From the NCBI RefSeq assembly GCF_015557435.1, contig NZ_JADNOH010000037.1, forward strand, positions 1 to 64,000: 64,000 nt of DNA. The letters run 5' to 3'. The notes under the pieces were generated by a model that saw nothing but the letters and a program-made list of their open reading frames with translations, searched no databases and was not told the origin of the DNA. The position numbers and the translations under genes are program-made. Shown one piece after another: positions 42,100 through 59,581 of the stretch (the stretch's first letter is position 1; each line of letters opens with the position of its first letter). This stretch comes from Collinsella aerofaciens (GTDB lineage Bacteria > Actinomycetota > Coriobacteriia > Coriobacteriales > Coriobacteriaceae).

Positions 42100-42311
42100 C
42101 TTATTGCCAGACCGAGTAGGCCCCAGGGCCGAAAGCAGAGCGCGAAGAGGAAGGAAGGCGCGACCGTCGGGCATGCGCCCGTAAATACGCACCCCGCGAG
42201 GGTGGCCGGACGCTGCTTGCATGGCGCGGCGCTCCGTGGCTTCGCCGCGTTTCATGGCCATACCTCAAGCGGCTGCCAGAGCCACATTGCAAGCCGCGCG
42301 GGGTGCCTCCT
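42100..42311 (+). ncRNA. DGR1 RNA spacer: conserved structured region between TR and RT
   Basis: This 212-nt non-coding stretch is strongly similar to the TR-RT spacer of DGR2. Shared features are ATTGCCAGACCG just after the TR, GAGGAAGGAAGG, a GGGC-(4 nt)-GCCC hairpin (42169-42180), an outer 10-bp pairing gcaccccgcg/cgcggggtgc (42189-42198/42297-42306), and an inner CGCGGCG/CGCCGCG stem (42225-42231/42243-42249). The inner stem shows a compensatory C-G to U-A change in DGR2. Likely it recruits Avd-RT and primes cDNA synthesis. Confidence 0.75.
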
Positions 42312-43514
42312 GTGAACTCCGAGCAAAGGCGGGCGGCGCGCCGCAAGCGCCGCGAGGAGAAGCGCGCGCAGGCCAAGGCCGAGCGCGTCAAGGCGTGCAC
42401 CCTTGAGACGGTGGCCGACCTCAACAGCCTGTGCAAGGCATCGAAGCAGGCCGCGCGGGGCGTGATGTGGAAGTCGTCCACGCAGCGGTACATGAGAAGC
42501 TACCTGCGCAACGCCGTCCTGTCCCGCCGCGACCTTTTGGAGGGGCGCGACATATGCCGGGGCTTCATACGGTTCGACCTGTGGGAGCGCGGCAAGCTGC
42601 GCCATATCAGCGCCGTGCACTTCCCCGAGCGCGTGGTGCAGAAGTCCCTGGCACAAAACGCGCTCGTTCCCGCCATAGCCCCCACCCTCATAGCCGCCAA
42701 CTCCGCGAACATAAAGGGGCGCGGCACCGACTACGCCCTGAAACTGCTCAAGCGCCACCTGGCCGACAACTGGAGGAGGCACGGTGGCGATGGCTACATA
42801 CTGCTTGGCGACTTTTCCGACTACTTCGCCCGCATAGCGCACGGCCCCGTCAAGGAGCAGGTTGCCGCCGCGCTGCTCGACCCGCGCGTGATCGCCCTTG
42901 AGCACCGCCTGATTGACGCGCAGGGCGAGGTGGGCCTGGGGCTGGGCAGCGAGCCGAACCAGATATGCGCGGTGGCACACCCCAACCGCATCGACCACTA
43001 CGTGACCGAGATGCTGCGCCCCGAGGCGTACGGGCGGTACATGGACGACTTCTACCTCATACACGAGAGCAAGGAGTACCTGCAGGTGTGCCTGCTGCTG
43101 ATAGGGCGCAAGTGCGCCGAGCTGGGCATAGAGCTGAACCCGCGCAAGACCCGCGTGGTGAAGCTGTCGCGCGGCTTCACGTGGCTGAAGAAGCGCATCT
43201 TCTACACGGAGACGGGCCGCATAGTCGTGAAGCCGTGCCGAGACTCCATAACGCGGGAGCGCCGCAAGCTCAAGAAGATGGCCCGCATGGTCGCCGATGG
43301 CATCATGACCCCCGAGCAGGTGGAGCAGAGCTACCAGAGCTGGCGCGGAGGCATGAAGCGGCTGGACGCGCACCGCAGCGTGCGGGCCATGGACGCGCTG
43401 TACCGCAGCCTGTTCGGAAATCCCGCGGGGGGGGTTGCTCAATGCAATCCAAACCTGGAGGCGACACGGATGGGAACATGCCCCTACCCTAGCAACAGAA
43501 GGAGCGACCCATGA
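42312..43514 (+). CDS. DGR1 reverse transcriptase
   Basis: The 400-residue RT has the palm motif YMDDFY near 243-248, an acidic motif A region (ILLGDFSDYF, about 163-172) and GLGLGSEPNQ near 208-217, corresponding to the (I/L)GxxxSQ-like motif that separates DGR RTs from group II intron and retron RTs. No maturase, endonuclease or retron features are seen. GTG 42312 aligns with the ATG of the DGR2 RT; a GTG 9 bases upstream is possible. The C-terminus is ~30 residues longer than the DGR2 RT, after a run of eight G. Confidence 0.95.
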   Translation: MNSEQRRAARRKRREEKRAQAKAERVKACTLETVADLNSLCKASKQAARGVMWKSSTQRYMRSYLRNAVLSRRDLLEGRDICRGFIRFDLWERGKLRHISAVHFPERVVQKSLAQNALVPAIAPTLIAANSANIKGRGTDYALKLLKRHLADNWRRHGGDGYILLGDFSDYFARIAHGPVKEQVAAALLDPRVIALEHRLIDAQGEVGLGLGSEPNQICAVAHPNRIDHYVTEMLRPEAYGRYMDDFYLIHESKEYLQVCLLLIGRKCAELGIELNPRKTRVVKLSRGFTWLKKRIFYTETGRIVVKPCRDSITRERRKLKKMARMVADGIMTPEQVEQSYQSWRGGMKRLDAHRSVRAMDALYRSLFGNPAGGVAQCNPNLEATRMGTCPYPSNRRSDP

Positions 43515-43842: not shown

Positions 43843-44256
43843 ATGACCGACGTGCTGGAAATCTTCGCGCCGTACGGCCCCGGGTCGCTTTTCGGCGCGC
43901 TGCTCGTCCTAGTGGTCCTGTACTTCGGCAAGCAGTTCCTCGAAGAGTTCAAGGCCCAGAACGAGCGCAAGGCGAACATCGACCTCAAGCGCGAAGAGCG
44001 AAAGCAGGACGAGGTGAACGAGCGGGCGCAGCGCGACCGCGAGCGCAGCCAGATGGAGGGCCGCATCGCCGCGCAGATGGAGCGCAGCAACGCGCTGATG
44101 GAGGCTATGAAGGCGCTCATGGAGTCCGTCGTGACCTCCAACGAGGTGCTGCACGCCGACCTGGCGAACAGCCAGGCGCGCAGCCAGGGCATGGCGGCGA
44201 AGGTCGACCACATCGCCGACCGCGTTGACCTGCTCTACAAGGAATCGGCTCGATAG
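43843..44256 (+). CDS. Membrane-anchored coiled-coil protein of the lysis region
   Basis: The 137-residue protein has one N-terminal transmembrane helix (LFGALLVLVVLYFG) followed by a strongly charged coiled coil (ERKANIDLKREERKQDEVNE). Prophage 2 has a clear homolog at 48050-48496 with the same QRDRERSxMEGRIAAQMERSN core. It may act in lysis or as a membrane spacer; the family role is not established. Confidence 0.75.
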   Translation: MTDVLEIFAPYGPGSLFGALLVLVVLYFGKQFLEEFKAQNERKANIDLKREERKQDEVNERAQRDRERSQMEGRIAAQMERSNALMEAMKALMESVVTSNEVLHADLANSQARSQGMAAKVDHIADRVDLLYKESAR

Positions 44257-45805: not shown

Positions 45806-45821
45806 AACAGTTGGTGGAGCT
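45806..45821. other. Inferred attR of prophage 1 (core ttggtggagct)
   Basis: The core at 45811-45821 matches 10581-10591. On the - strand it reads Ser-Ser-Thr-Asn in the same frame as in the integrase, then CSVGEHIRVFVV and on to the stop at 45744. Confidence 0.7.
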
Positions 45822-45848
45822 TATGAGAAAAACGGCGAACTCCACCAA
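45811..45848. repeat. Inverted att-like arms ttggtggag / ctccaccaa
   Basis: Nine-base perfect arms at 45811-45819 and 45840-45848 with 20 bases between them: 38 bp in all, the size and symmetry of a serine-recombinase attachment site. The right arm may mark the left end of prophage 2. Confidence 0.5.
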
Positions 45849-46001
45849 TACCGCCACCCGCGCGGCTATCCAACTCGATACTTGCATTGTAAGGGTATCG
45901 AAAAACTGGTTTGTTGTCGTTGGAACGTGCCAGAAATAGCCATTTCTGGTGTTTGCAAAACACCAGATGGGCGGCTTGCTGTAAGCCCGTATAACGGCAT
46001 A

Positions 46002-46034
46002 AAGCGGGGCACCCCTTGTCAGGGTACCCCGCTT
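46002..46034 (-). terminator. Terminator after the prophage 2 lysin
   Basis: aagcgggg...ccccgctt with an inner paired segment and one internal mismatch lies 6 bases past the lysin stop on the - strand. A short T-rich stretch (cgctttatg) follows. Confidence 0.6.
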
Positions 46035-46039
46035 GAACA

Positions 46040-47104
46040 CTAATAAGAAAGCTTCTGGCCGGGGTAGATCGTATAAGGTGCCCCAATGCCGTTCTTGCTT
46101 GCGATGGTGTGCCAGTCGATGCCGAGCGAAGCGCCAATCTCGCTGAGCGTGTCGCCGCTCTTGACGGTGTAGACGCGCGCAGAGCCAACGCCCGCCCTCT
46201 GGTTGACGATTGCCTGAACCTCTTTGAAGCGGTCGCCCAGAACGTCGCTGCGCGTCGGCACAACGCCGAACATTCCGCGCTCCACATCGTCTGCGAGCTG
46301 AGAAGCGGAAGCGCCGTCAATGTAGTTGATGAGGTCTTGCACCTCTTGGTAACGGTCGCCGAGCTTTTCGCGGCGCTCATCATCAACGCCATACTCGCCG
46401 CGCATGACCGCCGCTGCAAGGTCAAGCGTCGTGCCCTCCGGCGAAGGCTCGGCGACCTCTGCGGGCGGAACGTCGGGAGCTGCCGCGCCGGACGGGTTGG
46501 CGAACTTGCCCCACGCTTCGCGCGTCATATAGGCGATATCGAGATCAAGCGGCGCGTTGAAGCCATCGAGACGGCCATTCGAAGTGTATTGGTGGATTGC
46601 GCAGCTACCCCAAGCGCCGAAGCCGCCATCGGGAAGCCACGGCGAAGATTGGTAGCCGGTGCGGTTGTTGTTGGCGTACTGCGCAACCCATAGCGCGTGA
46701 TTCGGTGCAATCTTCGACCAATCTTCTTCGGTGCAAACGCTACGGCTCATGTAGACGATGCAGCGAACGCCGGTCTGATCGTAGACGTAATCGAGGAACT
46801 GCTTTGCCTTGTCGGTTCCGATGCGCCCGTACATCTCATAATCGAGAACGGGAATACCGTTGCCGAAGTAGTTACGGCAGCTTGCGACGAAATGCTTAGC
46901 CTGAGCGATGGGGTCTTCTCCGTTCATGAAGTGATAGAAGCCCCAGAGCTTGCCGAGCTTGATAGCCTGCTGAATCCACGGGTCGCAGGTGTTGTGAACG
47001 ATAGTGGTTCCCTCGGTCGCCTTGCAGATAACGAAATCGCAAGGCACCTGCGCGAGGTCAAGCCCGCGCTGGTAGTTGGAAATGTCAATGCCGTTGAGTG
47101 CCAT
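46040..47104 (-). CDS. Endolysin: GH25 muramidase with two Cpl-7 repeats and LysM
   Basis: The 354-residue lysin has an N-terminal GH25 lysozyme domain (1-200): GIDISNYQRGLDL at the start and catalytic acids in VLDYEMY (Asp88, Glu90). Two Cpl-7-type wall-binding repeats follow (about 222-255 and 265-300; pattern LA..V..GxxG...R...LGDRY.EVQ.xIN), then a LysM domain (about 310-354; YTVKSGDTLSEIG). It cuts the glycan strand, a different bond from the prophage 1 amidase. GGGGGCTTCT-type ribosome site upstream. Confidence 0.93.
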   Translation of the reverse strand: MALNGIDISNYQRGLDLAQVPCDFVICKATEGTTIVHNTCDPWIQQAIKLGKLWGFYHFMNGEDPIAQAKHFVASCRNYFGNGIPVLDYEMYGRIGTDKAKQFLDYVYDQTGVRCIVYMSRSVCTEEDWSKIAPNHALWVAQYANNNRTGYQSSPWLPDGGFGAWGSCAIHQYTSNGRLDGFNAPLDLDIAYMTREAWGKFANPSGAAAPDVPPAEVAEPSPEGTTLDLAAAVMRGEYGVDDERREKLGDRYQEVQDLINYIDGASASQLADDVERGMFGVVPTRSDVLGDRFKEVQAIVNQRAGVGSARVYTVKSGDTLSEIGASLGIDWHTIASKNGIGAPYTIYPGQKLSY

Positions 47105-47795
47105 AGAAGCCCCCTCTGATGCAGTAGAAGTAATGAAAATCGACCTTCTCTAGCTCTTCGAGCGTGAAGGCGCGCGCCGAGTTCCCGGCGCTCGCCGGGT
47201 CGCGTATCCAGTAGCCGTCATCGTCGGCGCGCCAGATCAGCACGACGTGCCCGCCGTAGTCCCTATCGCCTAGCGTTCCGCTCATGCCAGCGAAGGCAAG
47301 CCATCCGTCAGACACGTTCTGAAGGACGGGCGCGAGATCGTAAGAAATCGGCGTGCTCTCAATGCCGTATTCCGGGTAATGCTCGGCAATCCACGCGCAG
47401 AACTTGCCGGGGTCGTTCACGCCATCGGTAAGGCAGGCGTCGCCCACGAACGATGCGAGCGTGAGCGGCGTAATGTCCTGAAGCGTCATGTATTTGATAG
47501 CCATAGCGGCGCACGTAAGGCCGCAGCCGTAGTCGCCGATGGTGCCGCCCGCATAGGGTATGTAGTCCCATTGCGGGTCTGTCTGAAGCCATAGCGGCAT
47601 GCTGTTACCCTCGGCAATCGGCCTATCGACAACGATTGCTAGGCGGTCTTCCTCAGCCGCCGCGTATCCCTCTTCGCGCGCTTCAGCGAGCGCGCCCGCG
47701 TCGCTCTCGATATGGCCGACGATGAGCCAGCCGCAGAAGAGCATTGACGCGAGCGCGCCGGAAAGCACGAGGGCGACAGCCTTTAGCCTACTCAT
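47085..47795 (-). CDS. Membrane-anchored C39-like (papain-fold) cysteine peptidase
   Basis: The 236-residue protein has an N-terminal transmembrane helix (about 7-27) and a C39-like peptidase domain: GDYGCGLTCAAMA (Cys91) and GGHVVLIW carrying the His, then DPASAG with the third residue. It overlaps the lysin gene by 20 bases. Papain-fold enzymes here may cut wall peptides or a bacteriocin-like leader; either is unproven. It is an unusual member of a phage lysis cassette. Confidence 0.75.
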   Translation of the reverse strand: MSRLKAVALVLSGALASMLFCGWLIVGHIESDAGALAEAREEGYAAAEEDRLAIVVDRPIAEGNSMPLWLQTDPQWDYIPYAGGTIGDYGCGLTCAAMAIKYMTLQDITPLTLASFVGDACLTDGVNDPGKFCAWIAEHYPEYGIESTPISYDLAPVLQNVSDGWLAFAGMSGTLGDRDYGGHVVLIWRADDDGYWIRDPASAGNSARAFTLEELEKVDFHYFYCIRGGFYGTQRH

Positions 47796-48048
47796 CGCGC
47801 TTCGGCTCGGTGTATGTGAGCGCTTGCGCGGAATCGCCCACGCCAGCCGTGGTCGGGTCAGTCACGATGCCCAGAATCGCGAGCACGGCGAAAAGCGCGT
47901 TGATGATCGCTGCCAACTGCTCGTTCAGAACGCCGAAGTCCCACTGATAGCCGAACGGCGCGGCGACAACCTGCACGAGCAGCAGAACAGCGGGAATGAG
48001 GGTCAGCCAAAACGTCTTGTTCTTAATTCGTGCGGTGAAGTTAATCAT
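47788..48048 (-). CDS. Holin (phage holin 1-like)
   Basis: The 86-residue protein begins MINFTARIKNKTFWLTLIPA, a well-known holin N-terminus in Firmicutes and Actinobacteria phages. It has two hydrophobic segments (FWLTLIPAVLLLVQVVA and INALFAVLAILGIV) and a polar tail. AAGGAG lies 8 bases before this start, so an upstream in-frame ATG is rejected. Confidence 0.88.
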   Translation of the reverse strand: MINFTARIKNKTFWLTLIPAVLLLVQVVAAPFGYQWDFGVLNEQLAAIINALFAVLAILGIVTDPTTAGVGDSAQALTYTEPKRDE

Positions 48049-48049
48049 T

Positions 48050-48496
48050 TCAGTTCTCCTTTTCATAGATGAGGTCTACGCGGTCGTAGATGTGATCGAC
48101 TTTGTTTGCCATGTCGTGCGAGTGCTCGCGCGATTCCCTGATTTCGTCGTGCAGCGCTTCAGTGGAAGCCCTGAGAGATTCCATAGCGGCTTGCAGCCCT
48201 TCCGAAATGTTGTTGCTTCGCTCCATCTGCGCAGCGATACGGCCTTCCATCTCCGAGCGCTCGCGGTCGCGCTGCGCGCGCTCGTTGAGTTCGTCGCGCT
48301 TGCGCTCTTCGCGCTTCAGCTCTAGCTCTGACTGTCGCGCCGCGTTTCGCTCTTCAAGCTCCGCCTTGCGCTCGTTGTTGCGCTGGTACTCGTTAAGCAG
48401 CTGCTTTGCGAGGATTCCGAAGCCGATAGCGATAAGGAACGCGAAGAACCATTCGGCACCGAACGCCGCTGCATGGTCTAAAACGCTCTCCGCCAC
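48050..48496 (-). CDS. Membrane-anchored coiled-coil protein of the lysis region
   Basis: The 148-residue protein has one transmembrane helix (WFFAFLIAIGFGILA) and a long charged coiled coil with QRDRERSEMEGRIAAQMERSN. It is homologous to 43843-44256 of prophage 1, and like it precedes the holin gene. Function unknown. Confidence 0.75.
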   Translation of the reverse strand: MAESVLDHAAAFGAEWFFAFLIAIGFGILAKQLLNEYQRNNERKAELEERNAARQSELELKREERKRDELNERAQRDRERSEMEGRIAAQMERSNNISEGLQAAMESLRASTEALHDEIRESREHSHDMANKVDHIYDRVDLIYEKEN

Positions 48497-48497
48497 G

Positions 48498-48944
48498 TCA
48501 GCCCTCCGTCACCTCTCGCCAGACGGTTTCGGTGCCGACAGCCCCCGGCTCCCATACGTTGTTGGCAACGAGGGATTCCCAGACCTTGCCGTTGTGCTTC
48601 ACGCGGGCACCGAGCGGGTAGGGATTCGTAGAATCGGGCTGCACCCATTCGGGCACTTCCTCTGTCGGCGTGTCGGGCGTTCCGGCTTCAAGCACCTTCG
48701 CCCAAAGGCTCGGCGCTGCCGTGGGCGACCAATCGGGCTGCGAAGTGTGAGCCTGAAGGCACGTGTAAAGCACGCCCTCGAAGCGCACGCGCTCGCCCTC
48801 GGCGTAGGCGTGGCCGTCTCCGTCCCACTCTGCGAAAAGCGCAGGGCACTTCGCCGCCACGTCGCTAGAGAGCGACGGCGCTTGACCGTCGAAAATGGCG
48901 ATGATCGCGCGAAGCTTGCCCTCTTCCTCTTCGGTGAATGTCAT
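48498..48944 (-). CDS. Carbohydrate-binding phage protein (chitin-binding type 3-like)
   Basis: The 148-residue protein has two modules with Trp/Tyr signatures of ChtBD3-like domains: GVLYTCLQAHTSQPDWSPTA...LWAKV and GKVWESLVANNVWEPGAVG...WREV. These bind polysaccharide in many tail and lysis proteins. aaagggga precedes the ATG at 48944. Confidence 0.78.
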   Translation of the reverse strand: MTFTEEEEGKLRAIIAIFDGQAPSLSSDVAAKCPALFAEWDGDGHAYAEGERVRFEGVLYTCLQAHTSQPDWSPTAAPSLWAKVLEAGTPDTPTEEVPEWVQPDSTNPYPLGARVKHNGKVWESLVANNVWEPGAVGTETVWREVTEG

Positions 48945-48964
48945 GTGTTCCCCTTTCTCTCGCA

Positions 48965-48994
48965 ACAAAAAAGCCCCCGCTAATGCGAGGGCTT
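48965..48994 (-). terminator. Terminator after the DGR2 reverse transcriptase
   Basis: On the - strand aagccctcgc/gcgggggctt with a 4-nt loop and one mismatch is followed by six T. It separates the DGR2 RT (ends 49019) from the lysis genes. Confidence 0.8.
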
Positions 48995-49018
48995 CGATAC
49001 CTTGCCATGTCGGCTTCC

Positions 49019-50128
49019 TCAGCCGAAAAGCTCCTTGTATAGCGCGTCCATGCGCTTTACCGTCTCGTGCGCGCTAAGGCGCTTCATGCTGCCGCGCCAC
49101 GACTGGTAGGATTGGTTGACCTGCTCGACGGTCATAATCCCCTTGGCGACCAGCGCGGCTTGCTTCTTCAGCTTGCGCCGCTGCCGCGTCACGGAGGAAC
49201 GGCACGGGCGAACGACAACCTTTCCGCCCTCGCCATATGAAAACCTCTTCTTCAGGAACACGAAGCCGCGCGTCAGCTTCACAACGCGCGTCTTCTTGCG
49301 GTTGATGATGATTCCCAGATCGTCGCAGAGCGCTTCGATGCGCGAAAGAGCGTCCCAAAGCGTCTGCTTGTCAAGAGCTATGCAATAGCTATCGTCCATG
49401 TATCGCCCGCTCGCCAAGATGCCCGGAAGGGACAGCATCAGATGGTCAACGGGCGAAGGCAGGGCGACGGCTAGAATCTGGTTCGGCTCGCTGCCAAGAC
49501 CCAAGCCGCGCGCGCCGTGAGCGTCTATCTGGTCGCTCATGACGCGCTTAACGCGCTCATCGTCAATGGCGCGGTCGATAAGGCGCTTGCATGCGTCGTG
49601 GTCGATGTTTGCGAAGTAGTCCGCGAAATCGACCTGCAAGATGTAGCCTTCCGTTCCGTGCTTTCGGTGGTGCTCGACAAGCTGGCGCTTCATGCGCCGA
49701 ATCGCGTAGTCGGTGCCGCGCCCCTTGACGTTCGCGGTGCATCCCTCGGCGAGGGTAGGCCAGATCGCGGGTGCTAGGGCGTGACGGCTCAACGATTTCT
49801 GTATGACGCGCTCTGAGAAGTGGACAGAGCAGATGTGACGAAGCTTGCCGCGCTCGAACAAGTCAAACTCTATGAAGCCGCGCCGGAAGTCTGCGCCCAT
49901 GAGAAGGTCGCGCCGCGCTCTCATGATGTTAGGAATGACGCGCGCCATGTAGCGCTGCACGCTCGATTTCCAGCGCACGCCAGCGGCAGCGCCGTTGGCG
50001 GCATCGTATAGGTTATCGAGATCGGCGACGGCTTCTAGCGTGCATCCCTCGATGCGCTTAGCCCTGTTTTCCGCGCGCTTGGCATCGCGCCTTGCTCGGC
50101 GCGCAGCCCTGCGCTCTTCAGAGTTCAT
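49019..50128 (-). CDS. DGR2 reverse transcriptase
   Basis: The 369-residue RT carries YMDDSY near 243-248, motif A (ILQVDFADYF) and GLGLGSEPNQ, as in DGR1. The RTs align along their length (for example NVKGRGTDYA, KKTRVVKLTRGF, QSYQSWRGSMKRL). The ATG at 50128 is chosen because the reading frame upstream covers the TR and the conserved spacer; NSEERRAARRARRDAKR aligns with the DGR1 N-terminus. It ends cleanly after MDALYKELFG. Confidence 0.95.
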   Translation of the reverse strand: MNSEERRAARRARRDAKRAENRAKRIEGCTLEAVADLDNLYDAANGAAAGVRWKSSVQRYMARVIPNIMRARRDLLMGADFRRGFIEFDLFERGKLRHICSVHFSERVIQKSLSRHALAPAIWPTLAEGCTANVKGRGTDYAIRRMKRQLVEHHRKHGTEGYILQVDFADYFANIDHDACKRLIDRAIDDERVKRVMSDQIDAHGARGLGLGSEPNQILAVALPSPVDHLMLSLPGILASGRYMDDSYCIALDKQTLWDALSRIEALCDDLGIIINRKKTRVVKLTRGFVFLKKRFSYGEGGKVVVRPCRSSVTRQRRKLKKQAALVAKGIMTVEQVNQSYQSWRGSMKRLSAHETVKRMDALYKELFG

Positions 50129-50339
50129 GAGGGCACCCCGCACGGCTCGCAATCGGCATCCAGCAGCCGCTTGACGGTTGACCATGAAACGCGGTCGAAC
50201 ACCGAGAACCGCGCCATGCAAGCAGCGAACGGCAACCGTCGCGGGGTGCATATTTACGGGCTTGCGCCCGATGGTCGCCCCTTCCTTCCTCAAATGCACG
50301 GCGCGCGGCGCTTCCGGCCGCACGGTCTGGCAATGCTTG
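50129..50339 (-). ncRNA. DGR2 RNA spacer: conserved structured region between TR and RT
   Basis: Homologous to 42100-42311. Elements on the - strand, written with + coordinates: ATTGCCAGACCG after the TR; GAGGAAGGAAGG; the GGGC hairpin (50258-50269) with a different loop; outer pairing gcaccccgc/gcggggtgc (50241-50249/50133-50141); inner stem CGCGGT/ACCGCG (50190-50195/50208-50213). The inner stem keeps pairing while its sequence changes relative to DGR1. Confidence 0.75.
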
Positions 50340-50468
50340 GGAATCACGGCAGCGGGCGCACCCAGTCGTTCGTCGGGGCATTGTTGTTGGCATTGCCGTT
50401 GCTGTTGACATTGCACGCGCTAGACGAAGACCCGCCCATGACCGACCGCAGCCACCAATTGACGCGAT
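50340..50468 (-). repeat. DGR2 template repeat (TR)
   Basis: 129 bp aligned to the VR at 51038-51166 (offset 698). Of 25 adenines (- strand), 15 are changed in the VR and no other base is. The reading frame is AAC/AAT rich and contains one TGA (50346-50344), which in the VR has become TGC. Confidence 0.95.
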
Positions 50469-50493
50469 GATTTCCAAGGGACAACGCGCGAAC

Positions 50494-50499
50494 ATTCTA
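50494..50499 (-). promoter_or_regulatory. -10-like TAGAAT at the avd2 stop, candidate DGR2 RNA promoter
   Basis: TAGAAT spans the avd2 stop codon and lies 25 bases before TR2, paralleling TATAAT in DGR1. No -35 is evident. Confidence 0.35.
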
Positions 50500-50907
50500 C
50501 CCCTTTCCAATGAGCTTCACGCCCGCGCGAGCGCCCTTTATGAGCTTTATATCGTTCTCGATGCTCTCTGAGATCTCTTCGAACTTAGCCACCTTGACGG
50601 GTAGCTTCATCGCCAGAAGGCATTGCAGGTCTTGGTAAAGCTGGTTTAGGTCTGCCAAGGCAAGCGTCATGTAATGCTTGCGTTCCTCGACGTTCCGCTG
50701 TGTGTTCGGGTAGAAGGCATCAGCCTTCACGAGGTTGAACACCACGCTTCGCGCCGTCTCCGCCATGGGGACGGCGAAGATGAAGCGATAGGATTTGGGC
50801 ACCGCGCCCGAAGTGACAAGCCGCGTCACTTCGTTTCGAATCGAAACCGCAGTGTTGAAATACTCGAACGTGCTTAGGTTGCGGTTCCGCACATATACGC
50901 CGCTCAA
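50497..50907 (-). CDS. avd: DGR2 accessory variability determinant (Avd-like)
   Basis: The 136-residue protein is homologous to DGR1 Avd: SGVYVRNRNLSTFEYFNTAV, ARSVVFNLVKADAFYPNT and IKGARAGVKLIGKG correspond block by block. It is basic and helical. The TTG at 50907 is the start suggested by alignment; a Shine-Dalgarno at ideal distance is not evident, so the start is less certain than in DGR1. Confidence 0.87.
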   Translation of the reverse strand: MSGVYVRNRNLSTFEYFNTAVSIRNEVTRLVTSGAVPKSYRFIFAVPMAETARSVVFNLVKADAFYPNTQRNVEERKHYMTLALADLNQLYQDLQCLLAMKLPVKVAKFEEISESIENDIKLIKGARAGVKLIGKG

Positions 50908-50936
50908 TTTGCAACATCCCCCCCTCCGTGATTTTC

Positions 50937-50998
50937 AAAAAAATACTTCGCCCGCGCTTCGCGCGGGGAAGTATAGGCGCATGCGCAAGGCATGCGCC
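50937..50998 (-). terminator. Double hairpin and terminator between DGR2 target and avd
   Basis: In transcript order: hairpin ggcgcatgc-(5)-gcatgcgcc (50976-50998), then a long stem atacttccccgcgc-gaa-gcgcgggcgaagtat (50974-50943), then seven T (50943-50937). Same design as DGR1, including a GAA loop. Confidence 0.75.
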
Positions 50999-51015
50999 AG
51001 ACCTGTACTATGTAC

Positions 51016-51032
51016 GGCTGATTTTATCAGCC
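51016..51032. other. Stem-loop 5 nt after VR2 (possible DGR homing hairpin)
   Basis: Arms ggctga and tcagcc pair perfectly (6 bp) around a 5-nt loop, overlapping the target stop codon and starting 5 nt beyond the VR. It matches the place of the stem-loop at 41365-41380. Confidence 0.6.
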
Positions 51033-51929
51033 TAGGAGGAAGCACGGCAGCGGGCGCACCCAGTCGTACGTCGGGGCATAGCCGTAGGCATAGCCGTAGC
51101 CGCCGACATAGCACGCGCCAGACGAAGACCCGCCCATGACCGACCGCAGCCACCAAGTGACGCGACCGCCCACGATGCGGCTTGCGGTGTCCGTGAAGAT
51201 GGGGAACTGCGAATCGAAGCCGACAGAGTAGCCCTTGCTGCCCCATACCGGGCACCCGTAAACCTCCATCTCTGAGGGCGACCAAATCTTGCCCAAGTCC
51301 GCCCAGCTCCAACCGCTCGCTTCAGTGAGCTTGCCGGAAGAAGAATAGCGCTCTTCGAGAAGCACGCGCTGCGCGAGAATGGCGCTCTGAAGCGTGGACG
51401 GCAGAGCGGGCAAGAAATCGTTGATCTCCCAATCGTGGAGCTTCGAGCACAAGTAAGGGTGCTTCTCTTCGGCGGTGCCGTTGTTGTCGTTCGTCTCGCG
51501 CCACTGAAGGTAGCTCGTGTTAGAAGCCTTGTCGCCCGTCACGGAGACTGGCGCTTTCGGCACCATGACGATATGGTGCCCCTTCGCGGTGTCGTCGCAC
51601 TGGTAATACTGGTCGATAGCGCCGATGCGGTAACGCACCGTCTGCGCGGGCACGTTAGCGCCCTCGGAAACGGGAACGTCGATGTAGTCGCCGATACGAA
51701 GACCGGCGAAGTTGGCGTTTCGCGCGCGGTTGCGAAGCCACGTGTAAATGTCGGTGTCGCCGATCTCGTTAGCGAAGACCGAAGCGAGCGAGCGCCCCGC
51801 GTAAGCGTTGATGTTGTGCTGGCGGTCGTATTCCTCGGCGGTCGTGACGGCGTTTGCCGAGTTGCGCGCCGAAGTGTCCTTGATGTTCTTAGCCGAGCCG
51901 CCGACGTTGAGAACGGAAATGTCAGCCAT
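51027..51929 (-). CDS. DGR2 target: C-type-lectin-like variable tail protein
   Basis: The 300-residue protein is homologous to the prophage 1 target (shared NFAGLRIGDYIDVPV, LAQRVLLEERYSSSG, SPSEMEVYGCPVWG). It ends in a variable domain WWLRSVMGGSSSG...YDWVRPLPCFLLG. The diversified positions are strongly Tyr/Gly-rich. It lies next to the BppU-like gene, so a baseplate receptor-binding role is inferred. AAGGAGG precedes the ATG. Confidence 0.9.
   Translation of the reverse strand: MADISVLNVGGSAKNIKDTSARNSANAVTTAEEYDRQHNINAYAGRSLASVFANEIGDTDIYTWLRNRARNANFAGLRIGDYIDVPVSEGANVPAQTVRYRIGAIDQYYQCDDTAKGHHIVMVPKAPVSVTGDKASNTSYLQWRETNDNNGTAEEKHPYLCSKLHDWEINDFLPALPSTLQSAILAQRVLLEERYSSSGKLTEASGWSWADLGKIWSPSEMEVYGCPVWGSKGYSVGFDSQFPIFTDTASRIVGGRVTWWLRSVMGGSSSGACYVGGYGYAYGYAPTYDWVRPLPCFLLG
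51038..51166 (-). repeat. DGR2 variable repeat (VR)
   Basis: 129 bp aligned to TR2 with 15 substitutions, all at template adenines. Encoded changes: Asn to Thr, Tyr or Gly, Ser to Gly, and a TGA template codon to Cys near the C-terminus. Confidence 0.95.
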
Positions 51930-51941
51930 GAAAGAACCTCC

Positions 51942-52946
51942 TTAGTTGAGTGTCGCAGTCTCTCCCGAAACGCTCGACTGAGAAAGCGTGATGCTCTCGC
52001 CAGATTGAGCCGTGACCCTGCTTGAAGGCACGTAGAGCGTTTCGCCGAGGTATAGGTAATCGTCCTGAAGCTCAGTAACCGCATGCGCAAGCGTCGCATT
52101 CTCTTCGCGCAGCTCTTGCACCTCGTCATCTGACGGCGGTTCGATAGCCGCGATAGAGTTTGCGATGTTAAACGCGTTCTGCGCGGCGGCGGTGGCATCC
52201 TCTGCCGCGCCGTTTGCAGTCTCAGCAGCGGCGTTCGCGCTCGCGGCAGCGGTGTTCGCCGCGCTCGCGGCGGCGTTGGCGCTTGCGGTCGCAGCGTCGG
52301 CGTTCTGCTTCGCCGTGTTGGCGGCAGACGCGGCGTTGTTCGCAGCCGTGGTCGCAGCGTCCGCGTTCTGCTTCGCCGTGTTTGCGGCAGATGCGGCGGT
52401 GTTGGCGGCATCTGCCGCGTTGTTCGCGTTCGTCGCGGCGCTGTTGGCTGTGCTCGCCGCAGTGTTTGCCTTGCCAGCGGCGGTATTCGCCGCGCTCGCC
52501 GCGCTGTTTGCGTTCTTTACCGCCGTCTCTCCACGGTCGATGAGGTCTTGCACGGCATCATCCCAGTTCTGCGCGGGCTGCTGCCCGTCAAGAGCGCTGC
52601 GCAGGATTTCAATTGCGAAGCGCTCCGTCGAATAGGTCTTGCCGCTCTTCGTGATCGTGAAATAGGCTTCGTCGGTGTAGCCGGACACGCTGCAAAGCTT
52701 CGATTCGTCAACCGTGATCGTGGCGGAGTTTCCGCTCACCGAGCACTGGCCGCGATAGTAGTTCCGCTTGTTAGGCAGAAGCACGACAAGCCATGCCGTA
52801 GCGCCGGAAAGCGAGAACTCAGCGCCGTTGTCGTAGATAAGAGCCTTGATGGTGGTTCCGCCATCGTCGCCCTGACCAACCTTGATGCAGGTTCCCGCGC
52901 CCTCCTTCGAGATATCGAGTTCAAGCGTCCGTGTGTTGCTCATCAC
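51942..52946 (-). CDS. Baseplate upper-protein-like protein with long Ala/Asn coiled coil
   Basis: The 334-residue protein has an N-terminal beta domain (1-130; LELDISKEGAGTCIKVGQGD) and a remarkable tandem coiled coil (about 145-265) of repeating AANTAA / ANxAA units, then a short C-terminal domain. It resembles the prophage 1 BppU-like protein and should support the DGR target trimer. The start is one of two adjacent ATGs overlapping the next gene. Confidence 0.78.
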   Translation of the reverse strand: MMSNTRTLELDISKEGAGTCIKVGQGDDGGTTIKALIYDNGAEFSLSGATAWLVVLLPNKRNYYRGQCSVSGNSATITVDESKLCSVSGYTDEAYFTITKSGKTYSTERFAIEILRSALDGQQPAQNWDDAVQDLIDRGETAVKNANSAASAANTAAGKANTAASTANSAATNANNAADAANTAASAANTAKQNADAATTAANNAASAANTAKQNADAATASANAAASAANTAAASANAAAETANGAAEDATAAAQNAFNIANSIAAIEPPSDDEVQELREENATLAHAVTELQDDYLYLGETLYVPSSRVTAQSGESITLSQSSVSGETATLN

Positions 52947-53344
52947 TCGCCGCCTTCCTCGCCGGTTCCGTAAGCGAGCGCGCGGAGGGCTTCGAGCGCT
53001 TCGGCGAAGCTCATAGCAGATCGCGCCTTGCTAGACACGGGCTGCACGTCCGCGCTCGCGGCGACGGCTGGCACGCTCGCAGCCAAAGCGTCGAACACAT
53101 CGACAACCGCCCTCATTCGGTCATCGACGTACAAGGGCTGAACGAGCGTGAAGGGCTGATCGTCGTTGATTGGCTCCTTCACGTCTTCCGGCTGCACGAC
53201 GGTTCGGTTTCCGTCTTCATCAACTGCAATGAAAATCATTCCGTTGCTCGCGGCGCGGTTGATAAGCTCTTCGTCGTATTCGGTCACCATCGCTTCGCAG
53301 TTGCCTATCGGGTCGTGCAGCATGTGATAAAGGGTCTTGCTCAT
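52943..53344 (-). CDS. Small tail-region protein of unknown function
   Basis: The 133-residue acidic protein starts MSKTLYHMLHDPIGNCEAMV with AGGAGG upstream. It lies between tail tip and BppU-like genes like the prophage 1 gene at 39225. No domain recognised. Confidence 0.7.
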   Translation of the reverse strand: MSKTLYHMLHDPIGNCEAMVTEYDEELINRAASNGMIFIAVDEDGNRTVVQPEDVKEPINDDQPFTLVQPLYVDDRMRAVVDVFDALAASVPAVAASADVQPVSSKARSAMSFAEALEALRALAYGTGEEGGE

Positions 53345-53352
53345 CGTTCCTC

Positions 53353-55515
53353 CTAGTCGAAGTTGCATACCGTGCAGAAGCCGTCTACAAAGTCGATGCT
53401 TCGCGTTGCGTTCCACCATGTAATCGTGCCGTCGCCGTCATCCTGAATCTTGCTGATGTAATGCAACGTGCAATCTTTCGTAATCGCATGCGTTGTCGTG
53501 GTGCTCTCACTGCTAGATGCAGCGGCGGAAATAAGCGGCGTGGTGATTCGTATATGCTGGTTTCCCGTCAACTGAAGACCGGTCGTTAGCTGTCCGGTGC
53601 TAACGTTTCGCATGTGCGCTGAGAAGTCGATAGTCCCGATCTGCGTTCCGTCTTCGTAGCCTTTAATCTCGCCACTGGCAAGACGAATGAGGTTTGAAGC
53701 AGAACCGCATTCGAACGTACCGTTAGCGTCGATATTGTTTGCCGTCATGTAGTTTGTCGTAAGCGAACCGGTGTTGAGGTTCCACGTGCTGCGACCGTAT
53801 CTGTCGCTGATGATGCCCGTTTCAATGTAGTTGGCATTGATGTAGAGCAGACCACCGCTAAGGTAGATTCCCTGTGTCTGCCCGTTGTTGGTCAGCTTGT
53901 TGAATATGTCGCGTTGCGTCTGAGCATCGACGGCTGAGCTTGCCGCATCGTCGGCGATTTTCTGAACGGTCTTGCCGCCAACCTCGGTGCTTGCGGAAAG
54001 CGAGAACTCGCCGCTTGTCAAATCCCAGCGGTTTTTGCCCTTCTCGTCGGTCAGAAGACCGGCACGCACGCGCTCGGCTCTCATGGTTCCCGTGTTGATC
54101 GCGTCGGCGCTCACCATAGCGCCTGTCAGGAAGGTTCGCCAGTCCCATTGACCGTCAGAAGTGAGGTTCGCGGCAAGTCGCATGCCCATACCGTTAATGT
54201 TGACAGCCCACATGCCCGAAGTCGCTTTGACCGGCAAACCTGTTTCAGCGTCGATGGGTACATTGCTCCACATCGTGCCAAGCTCGAATGTCTCGACCTT
54301 ATAGGTTCCAACGGCGTTGAACTGAGCGTTTAGCGCGGCCTGAAGCTGCTGAAGCCACGAAACCGACGTGCCCGCCGCAGCGTCATAGATTGCGTTTTGC
54401 TGGCTGTTGCTCTTTAACGCGTTGCTCACGCTCTGCCACATGTCGGCCATGTTGTCAGTAAGAGTGCCGAACGTAACGGTCGCGTCTCCGGTGAGCAAGT
54501 CGCGCTCAATCTGAGACACGCGGCCATGAAGGCGCACGCCCTCGGCAGAAAAGCCCTTGTCGATGATCGCAACGTCATCGCCAACGCCCACGCCCTCCCA
54601 CGAGCGCCCGAAGGCGTATAGGTCGATAACCGAAGCGGTGTAGGTTACTTTCGGCTCCTTCACTTGCTCCAAGTAGTCTTTCGTTTCCTGCAAGAGCTGC
54701 GCCGCATCCTCGCACTGCTCGTTGACGTATGACGCGACGGCGGGAAGAATGCCGCCCTCGCCGTCAGGGTGCCCCCAGACGGCTGTTGCTTCGGCATCCT
54801 CCACGTAGTCTTTGCCGCCGTTGATATCGCCGAAGGTGAGACGGCGACCGTAGCCACCGCTCTCAGTCTCAACGCCCTTGCCGTAGCCGTAGACGCGCGT
54901 CTTCGGGTTGTCGCTCGCAACCGAGCGCTTGACGGAAACGAGGTCTTTAGTCCACGTGAACCGCTTTGCACTGCTCTGGTTTCCGCGCTTCGCGCGCACG
55001 CCCACGCGGCGGCTAACTATGCCCGCGCCGTCGTGGACGATGAGCGTTTCAAGCTCGCCGCCCCACGTCTCGATGATTCCGGCCAATCCCTCGCGCACGC
55101 TCTCATGGTAGAAGGTGCGCGAAGCGCTGCCGCCCTGATCGCACGTGCCGACCTCCCAGCGCGTGTCTGCGATAATGGACGTGAGGGCTACCGACACGCT
55201 GCCAGAAGGCCGCTTATCGTCCAGCCAGTCATCCCACGTCTCGTTAACCGAGTTGATGCAGACGGCTTGCGTCTCTGGCGCGCCGTCATCGTCGTGTACG
55301 CGGTCGATGGTGTCAACGATGTGCTCGTGGCACACGCCCTGAAGGTCAATCCAGACTACGCGGTCGCCCTTCACGAGGTCTTCGGCGCACGTGATGTTCA
55401 GTTCGTCGGTTCCGTCCAGCGCGTCGGTGTGCGTCGCAGCGCTCACCGTGAGCCGCCCCAGATTGTCGCCCCAGCGGTTGAAGCGGGTGAAGCCGATACG
55501 TCTTATTAAAGCCAT
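53353..55515 (-). CDS. Tail-tip / prophage tail protein (Tal-like)
   Basis: The 720-residue protein shares hub-domain motifs with prophage 1 (TKDLVSVKRSVASDN; GGYGRRLTFGDINGGKDYV; WGGELETLI). The middle is coiled coil, and a C-terminal strand-rich region (440-720) contains repeated Asn/Gly/Thr-rich segments. It forms the tail tip. ATG 55515 is chosen; a start 12 bases upstream is possible. It overlaps Dit by 10 bases. Confidence 0.85.
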   Translation of the reverse strand: MALIRRIGFTRFNRWGDNLGRLTVSAATHTDALDGTDELNITCAEDLVKGDRVVWIDLQGVCHEHIVDTIDRVHDDDGAPETQAVCINSVNETWDDWLDDKRPSGSVSVALTSIIADTRWEVGTCDQGGSASRTFYHESVREGLAGIIETWGGELETLIVHDGAGIVSRRVGVRAKRGNQSSAKRFTWTKDLVSVKRSVASDNPKTRVYGYGKGVETESGGYGRRLTFGDINGGKDYVEDAEATAVWGHPDGEGGILPAVASYVNEQCEDAAQLLQETKDYLEQVKEPKVTYTASVIDLYAFGRSWEGVGVGDDVAIIDKGFSAEGVRLHGRVSQIERDLLTGDATVTFGTLTDNMADMWQSVSNALKSNSQQNAIYDAAAGTSVSWLQQLQAALNAQFNAVGTYKVETFELGTMWSNVPIDAETGLPVKATSGMWAVNINGMGMRLAANLTSDGQWDWRTFLTGAMVSADAINTGTMRAERVRAGLLTDEKGKNRWDLTSGEFSLSASTEVGGKTVQKIADDAASSAVDAQTQRDIFNKLTNNGQTQGIYLSGGLLYINANYIETGIISDRYGRSTWNLNTGSLTTNYMTANNIDANGTFECGSASNLIRLASGEIKGYEDGTQIGTIDFSAHMRNVSTGQLTTGLQLTGNQHIRITTPLISAAASSSESTTTTHAITKDCTLHYISKIQDDGDGTITWWNATRSIDFVDGFCTVCNFD

Positions 55516-56243
55516 CGTTCCACCCACTCAAGAATCGCGGTGCCGTTGGTGATGTTCAGGTGGCATCGTCCGTTGATCTCGAAGTAATCCGAATCAATCG
55601 TCACCGGCGCTGTCTGGTTGTTGACCGTCGCGTGCTCGGTCGCCATGTCAAGCCGTATGGTGCTCGAAGACGTGAGCGCCGTATTGATAGCCACGAACTC
55701 GCCGGTATCGACGTTCGTAATCCGCCACGTGCTGCCAGCAGATGGCTTCGCCGTGACCTTCAGGTAAGCGGGTCGGTTGCCGCCAGCGTTTACGTAGATG
55801 TTGCCAGCCGAAACCTCCATGCGGCGCTTCTGTCCGTAATAGTCCGGGTCGCCGATGTGAAAAGTCACGGTTGTTGTCGGGCATTCGTCCGTGATCTCGT
55901 CTAAGTCGGTGCTGCCGCTCACGATTGCGAGCAAGTAGCGCGTCGGGTCATCGGGTAGGTAGAGCGGCGCGGGTTCGTCAGTCCAGAGAGCCGCCGCGAG
56001 CTTGTGCCGCATCTCCGCGACCTCGCGGCGGTCTTCAGTCCTAAGCCAAATCTCAACGGGCAGGTCGTAGCCGCCACGGTAGGCGCTCTTGAAGACCTCG
56101 CCATGCCGCCCCGGCACGCTCTCGAACGTCGCGTTGACGGTCGCCATGATGGGGCGGCGCACCTTGCAGTAAACCAGCTTCGATAGGTCGGTGCCGTTGA
56201 AGATGATTCGGTCGTGCTGGTTCCTAGTCCGTCTAAGTTGCAA
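55506..56243 (-). CDS. Distal tail protein (Dit)
   Basis: The 245-residue protein has a Dit-like N-terminal belt (IIFNGTDLSKLVYCKVRRPI) and a galectin-like C-terminus (TGEFVAINTALTSSS...ILEWVERWL) homologous to prophage 1 Dit. It probably starts at a TTG preceded by a G-rich Shine-Dalgarno (ggggggtg), as no ATG lies nearby. Confidence 0.85.
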   Translation of the reverse strand: MQLRRTRNQHDRIIFNGTDLSKLVYCKVRRPIMATVNATFESVPGRHGEVFKSAYRGGYDLPVEIWLRTEDRREVAEMRHKLAAALWTDEPAPLYLPDDPTRYLLAIVSGSTDLDEITDECPTTTVTFHIGDPDYYGQKRRMEVSAGNIYVNAGGNRPAYLKVTAKPSAGSTWRITNVDTGEFVAINTALTSSSTIRLDMATEHATVNNQTAPVTIDSDYFEINGRCHLNITNGTAILEWVERWL

Positions 56244-58887
56244 CTGGCACCCCCCTTTGCTTCAGCTTGCTTGCGATGCCAGCGCCGATCTGCTGGCCTG
56301 TCTCGTATGCGTCCACGCCGTCAGCGACCGTGGCGTAAACCGTCACGGCGACGTTAACGGGCTGGCTCGGCGCGTCGGCGAACCGAGAGAACGCGCGGTT
56401 TACCGACGTTTCGATGAAGCCTTGCAACTGCTTCTCAGGCGCGATGAACTCGCCGCCAGCTTCGCCAACGCCGACGATTGACGGCTCATCGAAGTAGCCG
56501 CCGCGCGCATACCAACTAATGCTCACGCTCGGTAGCGAAATCGGGCCAAACTCGTTCCAACTGACGTTGAAGTGCGGAAGCTTCGGCTTCGGAATGCTGA
56601 TCTTGATTCCGCCAAAGGCGTTCATGATCTTCTGCGGAATGCTAGAAATCGCGTTCCACGCGCTTTCAATCGGGTTCTCGATGAAGCCCCTGATGCTGTC
56701 GAAAACGCCCCGCACCTTCGAGCCAAGGCCGGGGAATCCCAGCTTGTCGCCGATTCGGTCTGCGATGCTAACCGCCGTGCTCTCGGCAGCGTCAAGCTTC
56801 GAGCCGATGTTGTCTTTAATCGCGTTGAAGGCGTTTGCCGCTTGGCTCTTCGCCGTCTCCCAGTCGCCGTTCATCGCGGCTTGCAGAGCGCCAGCCGCAG
56901 AGCTGCCAACCGTCTTCGCGGTGTTCATGTCGTTCTGCACCGTGGAAGCGATTTGCCCGAAGGCCGAATCGGTGTTGCCGGTTAGGTTGTTCCACCAGTT
57001 AGACACGGTATCGACCGCGCCTTGTGCGAGGTTCCCGACGTTGGTTTTAAGGTCGTTCCAAGCGTTCGAAGCGCCGGTTTTGATGTTCTCCCAAGTGTCG
57101 GAAGCGCCTTGCTTCAGCTGCTCCCACTTCTCGCCAACGCCGGTGCAGAAATCAGAAACGCCGGTGCTGACCTGCTCCCAGATTCCGCCCCAGAACTCAG
57201 GCACGCCAGCGAAGAAATCCTGCACGGCTTGCCACTTCTCCGAAATCCAGCCGGTGAAGTCAGACCACATCTGCTTACCCGTCTCGGTCTGCGTGAAGAA
57301 CCACGTAAGGCCAGCGACGGCGGCTGACACGGCGGCTACGCCAAGGCCGATAGGATGCGCGGCGATAAGACCGGTAAAGCCCGTCCAACCGCTAGAGAGC
57401 GTGCCGGTGAGCATGGTTCCCAGACCGCCCGCCTTGGTGACGATGTTAGAGAAGCCGGTTCCTATCTTGCTCAGAAAGCCCGTGTCGCCCATGAGCTTCT
57501 TAGCGCCGCCCCAAAGCTCGCCAGCGGTCTTGAAGGCGCTTCCCACGCCCTCTGCGGCTTCCATCGTCTTACCAATGGCGGTTGTCACGCCGCCGAAGGC
57601 GACCGCGCCGAGCGCGAGGTTATTAACAAGCGTCTGCTGCTCTGGCGTTAGGTTCTTGTACCAGCCCGTTACGGATTCGAGCGCGGGCGCGAGAGTGTTA
57701 AGAAGGCTCGTCCCGATCTCGGTTACGGCGGTCTTGACTGGCATTGCCGCTTCGCCGAGTTCCTGCATGCTCTGGTTCATCTCGTTCTGCGCGTCGCGCG
57801 AAGCGAGAAGGTCTTTGTTCGTCTCTTGGTACTGCCGTCCCGCGTCCGCGTAAAGCCCGGTAAGCGTCTCGGTGATGAGCTGCGACCGCTCCTGCTCGCT
57901 TCCGCACGCGGCAAGAGCAGCGTTAAAAGCGTCTTCTTTTGTCTGACCCTCGGCGACCGCCTGATTGAAAGCGGCCTGAGCCGAAGAGTGACCGGACAGC
58001 GCGGCGCTCCACTGCTCGGCTGATGCCGTAGACCAGTTGAGAGCGTCGGCAAGACCGCCAGTGACGGTGCCCGTGTGCGCCGTCTCCTGCGCTGCTTCCG
58101 CCAAGTTCTGAAGCGGCAGAGCGTCGCCGAATGTCGCGTAAGCGCCAGCGGCAATGTCCGTCCACTGCTGCAATTCCTGCTCGTTGGTTGTCAGGCGCGC
58201 TAGGTTCTGGCTCGCTTCCGTGGCAGATGAAGAATCGCCAAGGATGCGGTAGAAGCTCGCATAGGTCGAAGATGCTTGCTCGGCGGTGCCGCCAGCGCTC
58301 ACCCATGCCGTTTCGAGCTGCCCGCTCTGCTGTATCGCTTCCTCTTGGCTCGATGCAAGGCCGGTAAGCGCGCCAGCCGCACCGATGATGCCGCCAGACA
58401 ATGCCGTTCCCGCGCTTGAAATCTTAGACCCGGCGTTTGAAAGCTTGTCGGCGTTGTCCTCGATGGTCTGACCAACCTTGTAAAGCGCCGTGCGCGATGC
58501 GTCCGCTTCGCGCGCCGTGTCCGCAAGCTCGCTGCCGTAGCTGTCAAGCTGGCGCTCGCACTGCATGATCGCGCGCTTCAGGCTGTCGTACTGCCGCTCC
58601 TCCTGAGCCGTGAGCTGCGCGCCGCTCTGCTTCTTGCTCTCCAACTGCGCGAGCGCTTGCTTGTAAGCATCAAGCTTCTGCTTCGTCTCGCCGTAGGCAG
58701 AGTTGAGCGCCTTTACCTTCTGCTCTAGCAGCTCGGTGTTTCCGGGGTCGAACTTCAGCGCCTTGTTGATATCGCGCAAATCGCTTTGGGTGTCGCGCGA
58801 TGCCTGCTGAACCTTCTTCAGGGCGCTTTGAAGCTCGGTCGTGTCGCCGCCGAACTTGATAACAAGCCCCTTGTAAGTGACCGCCAC
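56233..58887 (-). CDS. Tape measure protein
   Basis: The 884-residue protein begins MAVTYKGLVIKFGGDTTELQ and has coiled coils (30-150), hydrophobic segments (about 155-200 and 425-545), Trp-repeat segments (GVSDFCTGVGEKWEQLKQGA...TWENI) and a C-terminal GVGEAGGEFIAPEKQLQ. It sets tail length. It differs in sequence from prophage 1 apart from general style. Confidence 0.92.
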   Translation of the reverse strand: MAVTYKGLVIKFGGDTTELQSALKKVQQASRDTQSDLRDINKALKFDPGNTELLEQKVKALNSAYGETKQKLDAYKQALAQLESKKQSGAQLTAQEERQYDSLKRAIMQCERQLDSYGSELADTAREADASRTALYKVGQTIEDNADKLSNAGSKISSAGTALSGGIIGAAGALTGLASSQEEAIQQSGQLETAWVSAGGTAEQASSTYASFYRILGDSSSATEASQNLARLTTNEQELQQWTDIAAGAYATFGDALPLQNLAEAAQETAHTGTVTGGLADALNWSTASAEQWSAALSGHSSAQAAFNQAVAEGQTKEDAFNAALAACGSEQERSQLITETLTGLYADAGRQYQETNKDLLASRDAQNEMNQSMQELGEAAMPVKTAVTEIGTSLLNTLAPALESVTGWYKNLTPEQQTLVNNLALGAVAFGGVTTAIGKTMEAAEGVGSAFKTAGELWGGAKKLMGDTGFLSKIGTGFSNIVTKAGGLGTMLTGTLSSGWTGFTGLIAAHPIGLGVAAVSAAVAGLTWFFTQTETGKQMWSDFTGWISEKWQAVQDFFAGVPEFWGGIWEQVSTGVSDFCTGVGEKWEQLKQGASDTWENIKTGASNAWNDLKTNVGNLAQGAVDTVSNWWNNLTGNTDSAFGQIASTVQNDMNTAKTVGSSAAGALQAAMNGDWETAKSQAANAFNAIKDNIGSKLDAAESTAVSIADRIGDKLGFPGLGSKVRGVFDSIRGFIENPIESAWNAISSIPQKIMNAFGGIKISIPKPKLPHFNVSWNEFGPISLPSVSISWYARGGYFDEPSIVGVGEAGGEFIAPEKQLQGFIETSVNRAFSRFADAPSQPVNVAVTVYATVADGVDAYETGQQIGAGIASKLKQRGVPVAT

Positions 58888-58977
58888 GTAATCACCCCTC
58901 TTCGGTTGTCAAAGTCCCATGAGTGCTTGAAGCAACGCGCCCTCGCGGGTGCGCTGCCGTCAAGAACTCACTTCATG

Positions 58978-59223
58978 TCATGACCAGAACGCGGCTTCGG
59001 CCTTGCGCGCCTTCTCGTCCTCGTCGTAGTGCGCCGCAGCGTCTGCGTAGAACGCGTTGATTTCCAAAAGGTCTTGCACCTGCCGGTAGCTCATCATCTG
59101 AAGGTCTGAGAGCGTCAGGCCGCATTGCTGGCAGTTGTAGATGTATCGCGCGTCGCACGCGTCTTGCAGGTTACTTGGAAGCGGCGGCGCTGGCCTTTTC
59201 GGCTTCCTCGGCTTCCACTGCAT
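58978..59223 (-). CDS. Second tail assembly chaperone, probably made by frameshift
   Basis: The 81-residue frame (CGLTLSDLQMMSYRQVQDLL) matches the Gp15/chaperone T-type segment before the tape measure gene. Its ATG has no good ribosome-binding site and lies inside the upstream gene. A +1 (or -2) shift at TTT TTT CCA (A-run 59240-59245 on the + strand) would fuse it to the first chaperone. Confidence 0.7.
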   Translation of the reverse strand: MQWKPRKPKRPAPPLPSNLQDACDARYIYNCQQCGLTLSDLQMMSYRQVQDLLEINAFYADAAAHYDEDEKARKAEAAFWS

Positions 59224-59581
59224 CTTGCGCGGCGCTTGGAAAAAAGTTGTCCATCACAATACGCATCACGTCGGTAGCCCAACCGTCCTTGCGCTCCAAG
59301 TCGTAGCCATCGGCGGGGAAGGACGAAACCCACTCATCGAACTTCTCATCGAACTGAGGGTTTGCCGTCTTGATGCACGCGTAGAAGATTTCGAGAAGCG
59401 GCACGAGCGGTGGGAATCCGAACTTGTCCAAGTTCTCCAAGATCGCGCCGGTATCCTCGTTAATGTCCTTCGGTCTCATGGTGCCGTTGGGCTTCACGAC
59501 ATTGAAGCAGCGGGAAAAGGCAATCGGAGTGAATGCGTTGAAGGTCGCTTCGAACTCCTTTTCGCCAACCTTGATAAGCAT
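59171..59581 (-). CDS. Tail assembly chaperone
   Basis: The 136-residue protein (MLIKVGEKEFEATFNAFTPI) fits the first chaperone between the tail tube and tape measure genes. AGGAGG precedes the ATG at 59581. Its end overlaps the second chaperone frame by 53 bases. Confidence 0.82.
   Translation of the reverse strand: MLIKVGEKEFEATFNAFTPIAFSRCFNVVKPNGTMRPKDINEDTGAILENLDKFGFPPLVPLLEIFYACIKTANPQFDEKFDEWVSSFPADGYDLERKDGWATDVMRIVMDNFFPSAAQDAVEAEEAEKASAAASK

Follow-up and report, generated by a model that had tools for sequence, protein, structure and literature searches.

A complete diversity-generating retroelement with an RT-2 RNA spacer in the second of two adjacent prophages of Collinsella aerofaciens

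The layout of the diversity-generating retroelement (DGR) described here is already known, and active DGRs have been published for Eggerthella lenta and Faecalibacterium. The DGRs of E. lenta prophages belong to clades 3, 4, 7 and 10 and are active in DSM2243phi4, and in one such DGR, laid out like ours and from the same bacterial order, the variable repeat (VR) changed at 10 sites during culture (PMC8778435). Variation among reads at the VR has been reported for Faecalibacterium prophage DGRs (PMC11792537). For the DGR of BPP-1, a folded spacer has been described that brings in bRT-Avd and serves to prime the cDNA (PMC12875486), and transfer halts in a GC stretch before the IMH (PMC3240598).

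We analysed a window of 64,000 nucleotides from a Collinsella aerofaciens contig (C6, 95,973 bp) that carries two prophages, of which the first holds a DGR termed DGR1. Analysis of the second confirmed that 49019-51929 on the minus strand is a complete DGR (DGR2) with all parts present, and its genes follow one another on that strand as the earlier note had claimed, from target through Avd, template repeat (TR) and spacer to reverse transcriptase (RT):

51942-52946, minus strand: BppU-N baseplate/tail protein (PF10651, E=4.6e-7), directly upstream of the target
51027-51929, minus strand: target gene, 300 aa, DUF6273 (PF19789, E=2.9e-9), with the VR as its 3' end
51038-51166, minus strand: VR, 89% identical to the TR
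50951-50967, minus strand: putative terminator-like hairpin between target and avd, CCCGCGC-gaa-GCGCGGG followed by TTTTTTT
50497-50907, minus strand: Avd (accessory variability determinant), 136 aa, between target and TR
50340-50468, minus strand: TR, adenine-rich, with AAY codons
50113-50335, minus strand: RT-2 RNA (RF03077), the structured spacer from the TR to the RT start codon, 102.5 bits, E=2.7e-24
49019-50128, minus strand: DGR reverse transcriptase, 369 aa, with a YMDD motif

Like the DGRs of E. lenta, DGR2 has a 3' VR in the target, avd between target and TR, and a TR of about 130 bp upstream of the RT. Unlike them, it belongs to another phage and has another RT lineage and sequence, and activity, which was shown there, is something that we infer for DGR2. 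With the BPP-1 DGR (bRT, Avd, Mtd, IMH), it shares the component set, adenine mutagenesis, an IMH/IMH*-type difference, a stem-loop after the VR and a structured spacer 3' of the TR (PMC12875486, PMC3240598). It differs from BPP-1 in its distantly related RT, in a DUF6273 target instead of Mtd, and in a spacer that is an RT-2 RNA of about 212 nt.

A repeat search found direct repeats of 128 nt (50340-50467 and 51038-51165), and the 129-bp alignment of TR and VR reported earlier, with 15 substitutions all at template adenines, was reproduced. No mismatch fell at any of the other 104 positions (hypergeometric P about 2e-13 for the restriction of 15/15 mismatches to adenines), and the substitutions from TR to VR comprised seven A>G, six A>T and two A>C. 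The earlier figure of 15 mutagenised adenines out of 25 was, however, too high, since two of the 15 mismatches appear not to result from mutagenesis, which leaves 13 of 23. One of these, the 3' A>C (VR 51042, TR 50344), is on comparison with relatives a fixed mark. The other, an A>G at the 5' border of the repeat (51166), is probably no product of mutagenesis either, because close relatives show inherited border bases at this site, with G or another inherited base in the VR and A, G or T in the TR. Read in the target frame, nearly all TR adenines are first or second bases of codons such as AAY and AGC, and random change therefore creates no stop codons; the sole third-position adenine is that of the mark, where the TR reads TGA and the VR TGC. 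A search of the rest of the genome for further VRs matching this TR returned none, the matches being its own VR and the DGR1 repeats only.

Evidence on recent activity came from comparison with natural relatives. Over 4 kb, DGR2 is 96.4% identical to a cassette on L005, a viral contig from a metagenome. The two have the same TR (0/129), while their VRs are unlike at 11 of the 25 A sites and at 0 of 104 other sites; the genes differ by 4.1% (target), 0.5% (avd) and 3.5% (RT). The same skew towards A sites was seen in a second viral contig (RT 92% identical) and in Gordonibacter sp. An230 (93%), and a cassette with an A-specific TR/VR pair is present in about 30 relatives. This natural variation of the VR with a constant TR indicates that the DGR2 cassette was recently active, and supports RT-dependent mutagenic retrohoming. 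From the window by itself, which represents one strain, the age of the mutations cannot be told, and DGR2 could on that account be a decayed relic with old VR differences and a dead RT. We consider this very unlikely, given that RT and Avd are open and conserved, that the structure of the spacer RNA is kept, and that the 96%-identical relative combines an identical TR with a VR changed at A sites only. Judged from sequence, the reading of DGR2 as a functional DGR of prophage 2 has a probability of roughly 95%.

We then considered the 3' end of the VR and the segment that follows it, which contain the features below.

51042, minus strand: fixed VR mark, C opposite A at TR 50344 (TGATTCC>TGCTTCC), at the position of the IMH/IMH* difference
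51016-51032, minus strand: hairpin 1, GGCTGAT-aaa-ATCAGCC, 7-bp stem and 3-nt loop, just past the VR and over the stop codon
50976-50998, minus strand: hairpin 2, 9-bp GC-rich stem and loop CTTGC

The mark is A in the TR and C in the VR (ATTCC and CTTCC, respectively) in 31 of the 31 relatives that have that TR adenine. Among internal TR adenines across 32 DGR loci, 457 were unchanged, 182 had become G, 116 T and 90 C. Given that just 11% of the internal A sites carry C, 31/31 would arise by chance with a probability of about 1e-30 if sites are independent. Selection on the protein alone is insufficient to account for the mark, because the change would be synonymous in DGR1-type loci. We read the A/C mark, which follows a GC-rich stretch, as the IMH/IMH* difference, and its invariance offers a rule, open to testing, on the direction in which information passes. 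Hairpins similar to hairpin 1 occur in many relatives. Most Coriobacteriia relatives have counterparts of hairpin 2 at +32 to +44, with a GC stem of 9-11 bp and a nearly invariant CTTGC loop, which most share although the stem sequences differ. By analogy, hairpin 2 probably corresponds to the stem-loop that BPP-1 has downstream of the IMH, from which its function is also suggested (PMC3240598). Unlike BPP-1, DGR2 has two hairpins and a CTTGC loop, and the hairpin loops after its VR do not fit the 4-nt GRNA consensus of that study.

The spacer between TR and RT matched the RT-2 covariance model over its full length (1-222 of 222; gathering cut-off of RF03077, 40 bits), as did the spacer of DGR1 (42102-42326, plus strand, 134.7 bits). 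This TR-RT spacer of 212 nt has diverged less than the RT gene (6.2 vs 11.5% difference, for example). When the Rfam structure was imposed on 23 homologues, 84.9% of cells paired and 25 of the 42 pairs had changed on both sides; 0 of 500 shuffles gave covariation as high, and no slid register came close. Across 397 genomes of the order, there were 26 RT-2 matches in 23 genomes, all 26 lying between a TR and a DGR RT that a separate protein search had identified, and the RT-2 loci of the order yielded TR/VR pairs mismatched specifically at adenines. No RT-2 was seen in those of the 397 scanned genomes that have no such RT. Matches in other gut phages were placed likewise (4/4 between TR and DGR RT), and the same arrangement was found outside the order in Roseburia phage Shimadzu, Faecalibacterium phage Pioen, two uncultured gut phages and a Treponema genome. 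RT-2 does not cover all DGRs, because four distant RT loci (L016, L030, L032 and L038) had no match above the cut-off.

Taken by analogy, RT-2 is very probably the counterpart of the BPP-1 spacer RNA. The Rfam entry for RF03077 ('RT-2 RNA', sRNA) states no DGR role, and in the literature covered, the one paper naming it lists it for a structure update. The link between RT-2 and DGRs may already have been described, and the link together with the invariant mark may be new to a specialist. We see the balance as even on whether it is both true and undescribed that RT-2 forms the 3' spacer domain of template RNAs in a large class of phage DGRs that also carries the invariant A/C mark, the class comprising Coriobacteriia, Roseburia and Faecalibacterium phages and a Treponema genome. 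Such a link would give a catalogued RNA a role and make DGRs findable through an RNA model, and about 30 homologues are on offer to test the function of the spacer.

If DGR2 is functional, the TR and the structured RT-2 spacer would be transcribed as a template RNA, which RT and Avd would presumably bind. Once primed, this template would be copied into cDNA with wrong bases incorporated at adenines, and homing would then put the cDNA in place of the VR at the 3' end of the tail-fibre-like target gene, with variation in the residues arising from AAY codons. Transfer would be expected to halt within the GC-rich stretch that precedes the A/C mark on its 5' side, and the TR would therefore remain the donor and the VR the recipient, with the TGA stop not copied in. 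The hairpins past the VR probably aid homing, as in BPP-1.

Mapping of the prophages bore out the proposal that the second DGR sits on a different, adjacent prophage. The relevant positions are given here without strand.

10590-45811: prophage 1, 35 kb, serine integrase at 10493-12076, carries DGR1
45812-45819: att core TGGTGGAG at the prophage 1/2 junction, also at 10582-10589 and C6:78701
C6:45820-78700: prophage 2, 33 kb, tyrosine integrase at 70621-71808, carries DGR2, in the window from 45820 to 64000
64694-66442: TerL of prophage 2

A tmRNA gene lies at C6:78701-79064 (minus strand). In congeners, the host sequence that breaks off at 10589 here continues directly into the tmRNA gene at its 3' end, and 10590-78700 is therefore inserted DNA. 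The site was recognised from these empty sites and the tmRNA gene; a search for a long direct repeat as attachment site found none. The att core at 45812, an 8-mer with 8 copies on the same strand, is suggestive, and the exact join of the prophages is placed provisionally at 45.8 kb. Both prophages have their lysis (late) ends facing each other at the junction, and the closeness and convergence of the two DGRs thus result from tandem integration at the tmRNA 3' end with late ends facing. The draft state of the assembly (102 contigs) and the similar gene order in opposite orientation might point to a recent duplication or an assembly artefact, but we regard this as a remote prospect. The two RTs are 58% identical and fall in separate clades, codon composition differs between the prophages, both ends map to a single tmRNA site that is empty in congeners, and the DGR2 cassette occurs by itself in two viral contigs and in Gordonibacter sp. 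An230.

Several other observations were made on the prophages. A serine-integrase and a tyrosine-integrase prophage apparently share one tmRNA 3' end in tandem (C6:10582-78708). The serine integrase ORF of prophage 1 (10493-12076, minus strand) contains that prophage's att core in its 3' end, so that the last ~29 integrase codons are host-derived in the lysogen and would be different in the excised phage; an integration-dependent change of this integrase is possible. Positions 10416-10494 hold a short REP-like repeat with many copies per genome across the genus. The prophages are 75-85% identical at 43981-44237 and 48066-48322, a small gene adjoining the lysis module, hinting at exchange between prophages 1 and 2 or at common ancestry of the gene.

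The two DGRs share the type of target (DUF6273) and the accessory protein (Avd), as had been noted, and their independence, also part of that description, was upheld by separate, strongly supported RT lineages and by a VR2 that follows TR2. In the RT tree, DGR1 falls in one clade with congeneric phages (100/100) and DGR2 in another with the two viral contigs and Gordonibacter (100/98), and the two are therefore separate acquisitions. At each of the 24 informative non-A sites, VR2 has the base of TR2 and never that of TR1. TR1 and TR2 are 76% identical, as are the two spacer RNAs, and each TR might for that reason diversify the VR of the other within a single shared system. This is hardly probable, since there are 27 non-A mismatches between TR1 and VR2 and 25 between TR2 and VR1, with six in the last 20 nt, and sequence comparison gave no sign of cross-conversion, VR2 containing no TR1-like tract. 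Of the suggestion that the host carries two receptor-diversifying systems, the presence of two independent systems stands; it is two phages that carry them, and the receptor role is presumptive. The pairing within 11 kb, singled out as notable, does involve two DGRs on two phages, but is less remarkable than claimed, because two DGRs of RT-2 type also occur together in 2 of 22 other RT-2-type genomes of the order and because the closeness stems from tandem integration. DGR2 beside an independent DGR1 provides a natural setting for interference between two DGRs in one cell.

Profile matches place the target as the final gene of the tail module, after the BppU-N protein and tail genes. A BFVD search with its predicted structure found resemblance to phage DUF6273, tail-collar fibre and receptor-binding proteins, and its relative in Roseburia phage Shimadzu is annotated as a tail fibre. 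No solved C-type-lectin structure, the fold that is usual but not essential in DGR targets, matched the model with any weight, the VR part of the model having low pLDDT; the sole strong PDB match was the IgA peptidase 9qa6 (TMq 0.47). From the gene position and the named relatives, we infer a role in receptor binding. Avd2 is 51% identical to Avd1, and avd lies beside the RT in every relative examined. A sequence search of Avd against the PDB gave no credible match and its assignment came from the fold, the AlphaFold model being a four-helix bundle (pLDDT 87) with Foldseek matches to 2RLD (S23 family) and BPP-1 Avd 4DWL (prob 1.00, TM 0.75 on target). Sub-threshold Pfam/PADLOC matches of Avd to DUF1877 and Cas4 were discarded.

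The RT most likely starts at the ATG at 50128, the longer ORF to 50416 crossing the spacer RNA into the TR. It matched RVT_1 (E=6e-9) and phrog_1423 reverse transcriptase (E=1.8e-61), and its best solved relative is 8UB7 (E=1.7e-11), which we take to be bRT, the enzyme of the BPP-1 DGR; the YMDD motifs align, and LGSEPNQ corresponds to IGSLTSQ in 8UB7. Close relatives of the RT all lie within TR/VR cassettes. Generic RT profiles match as well, but a retron, DRT defence or group II intron RT can practically be dismissed, with group II at 56 of 300 bits, Drt models at <=21 bits against cut-offs >=200 and retrons far below cut-off, and with an adenine-specific TR/VR pair, Avd and a tail target alongside an RT whose best solved relative is 8UB7.

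Among named phages, none was near-identical to the DGR2 phage. Roseburia phage Shimadzu (LR596903) has the annotated tail fibre, Avd and RT in matching order (RT 47% identical), with an A-specific TR/VR pair, RT-2 RNA and the A>C mark; unlike prophage 2, it is a phage of a different bacterial phylum, and its target is longer. Faecalibacterium phage Pioen (PP479940) likewise has RT-2 between TR and RT, an A-specific VR and the A>C mark, and differs in an RT that is 31% identical. A relative genome (G262) has an RT 63% identical to that of DGR2, and RT-2 RNA is present. Phage nd12, with a weak RT match, had no TR/VR pair and no RT-2 and was excluded as a DGR. Two genomes of one genus (G212 and G213; loci L111 and L114) carry an apparently closely related DGR with the same RT and RT-2 scores, in which 22 and 26 of 37 TR adenines, respectively, are changed in the VR, and form a natural pair for DGR turnover.
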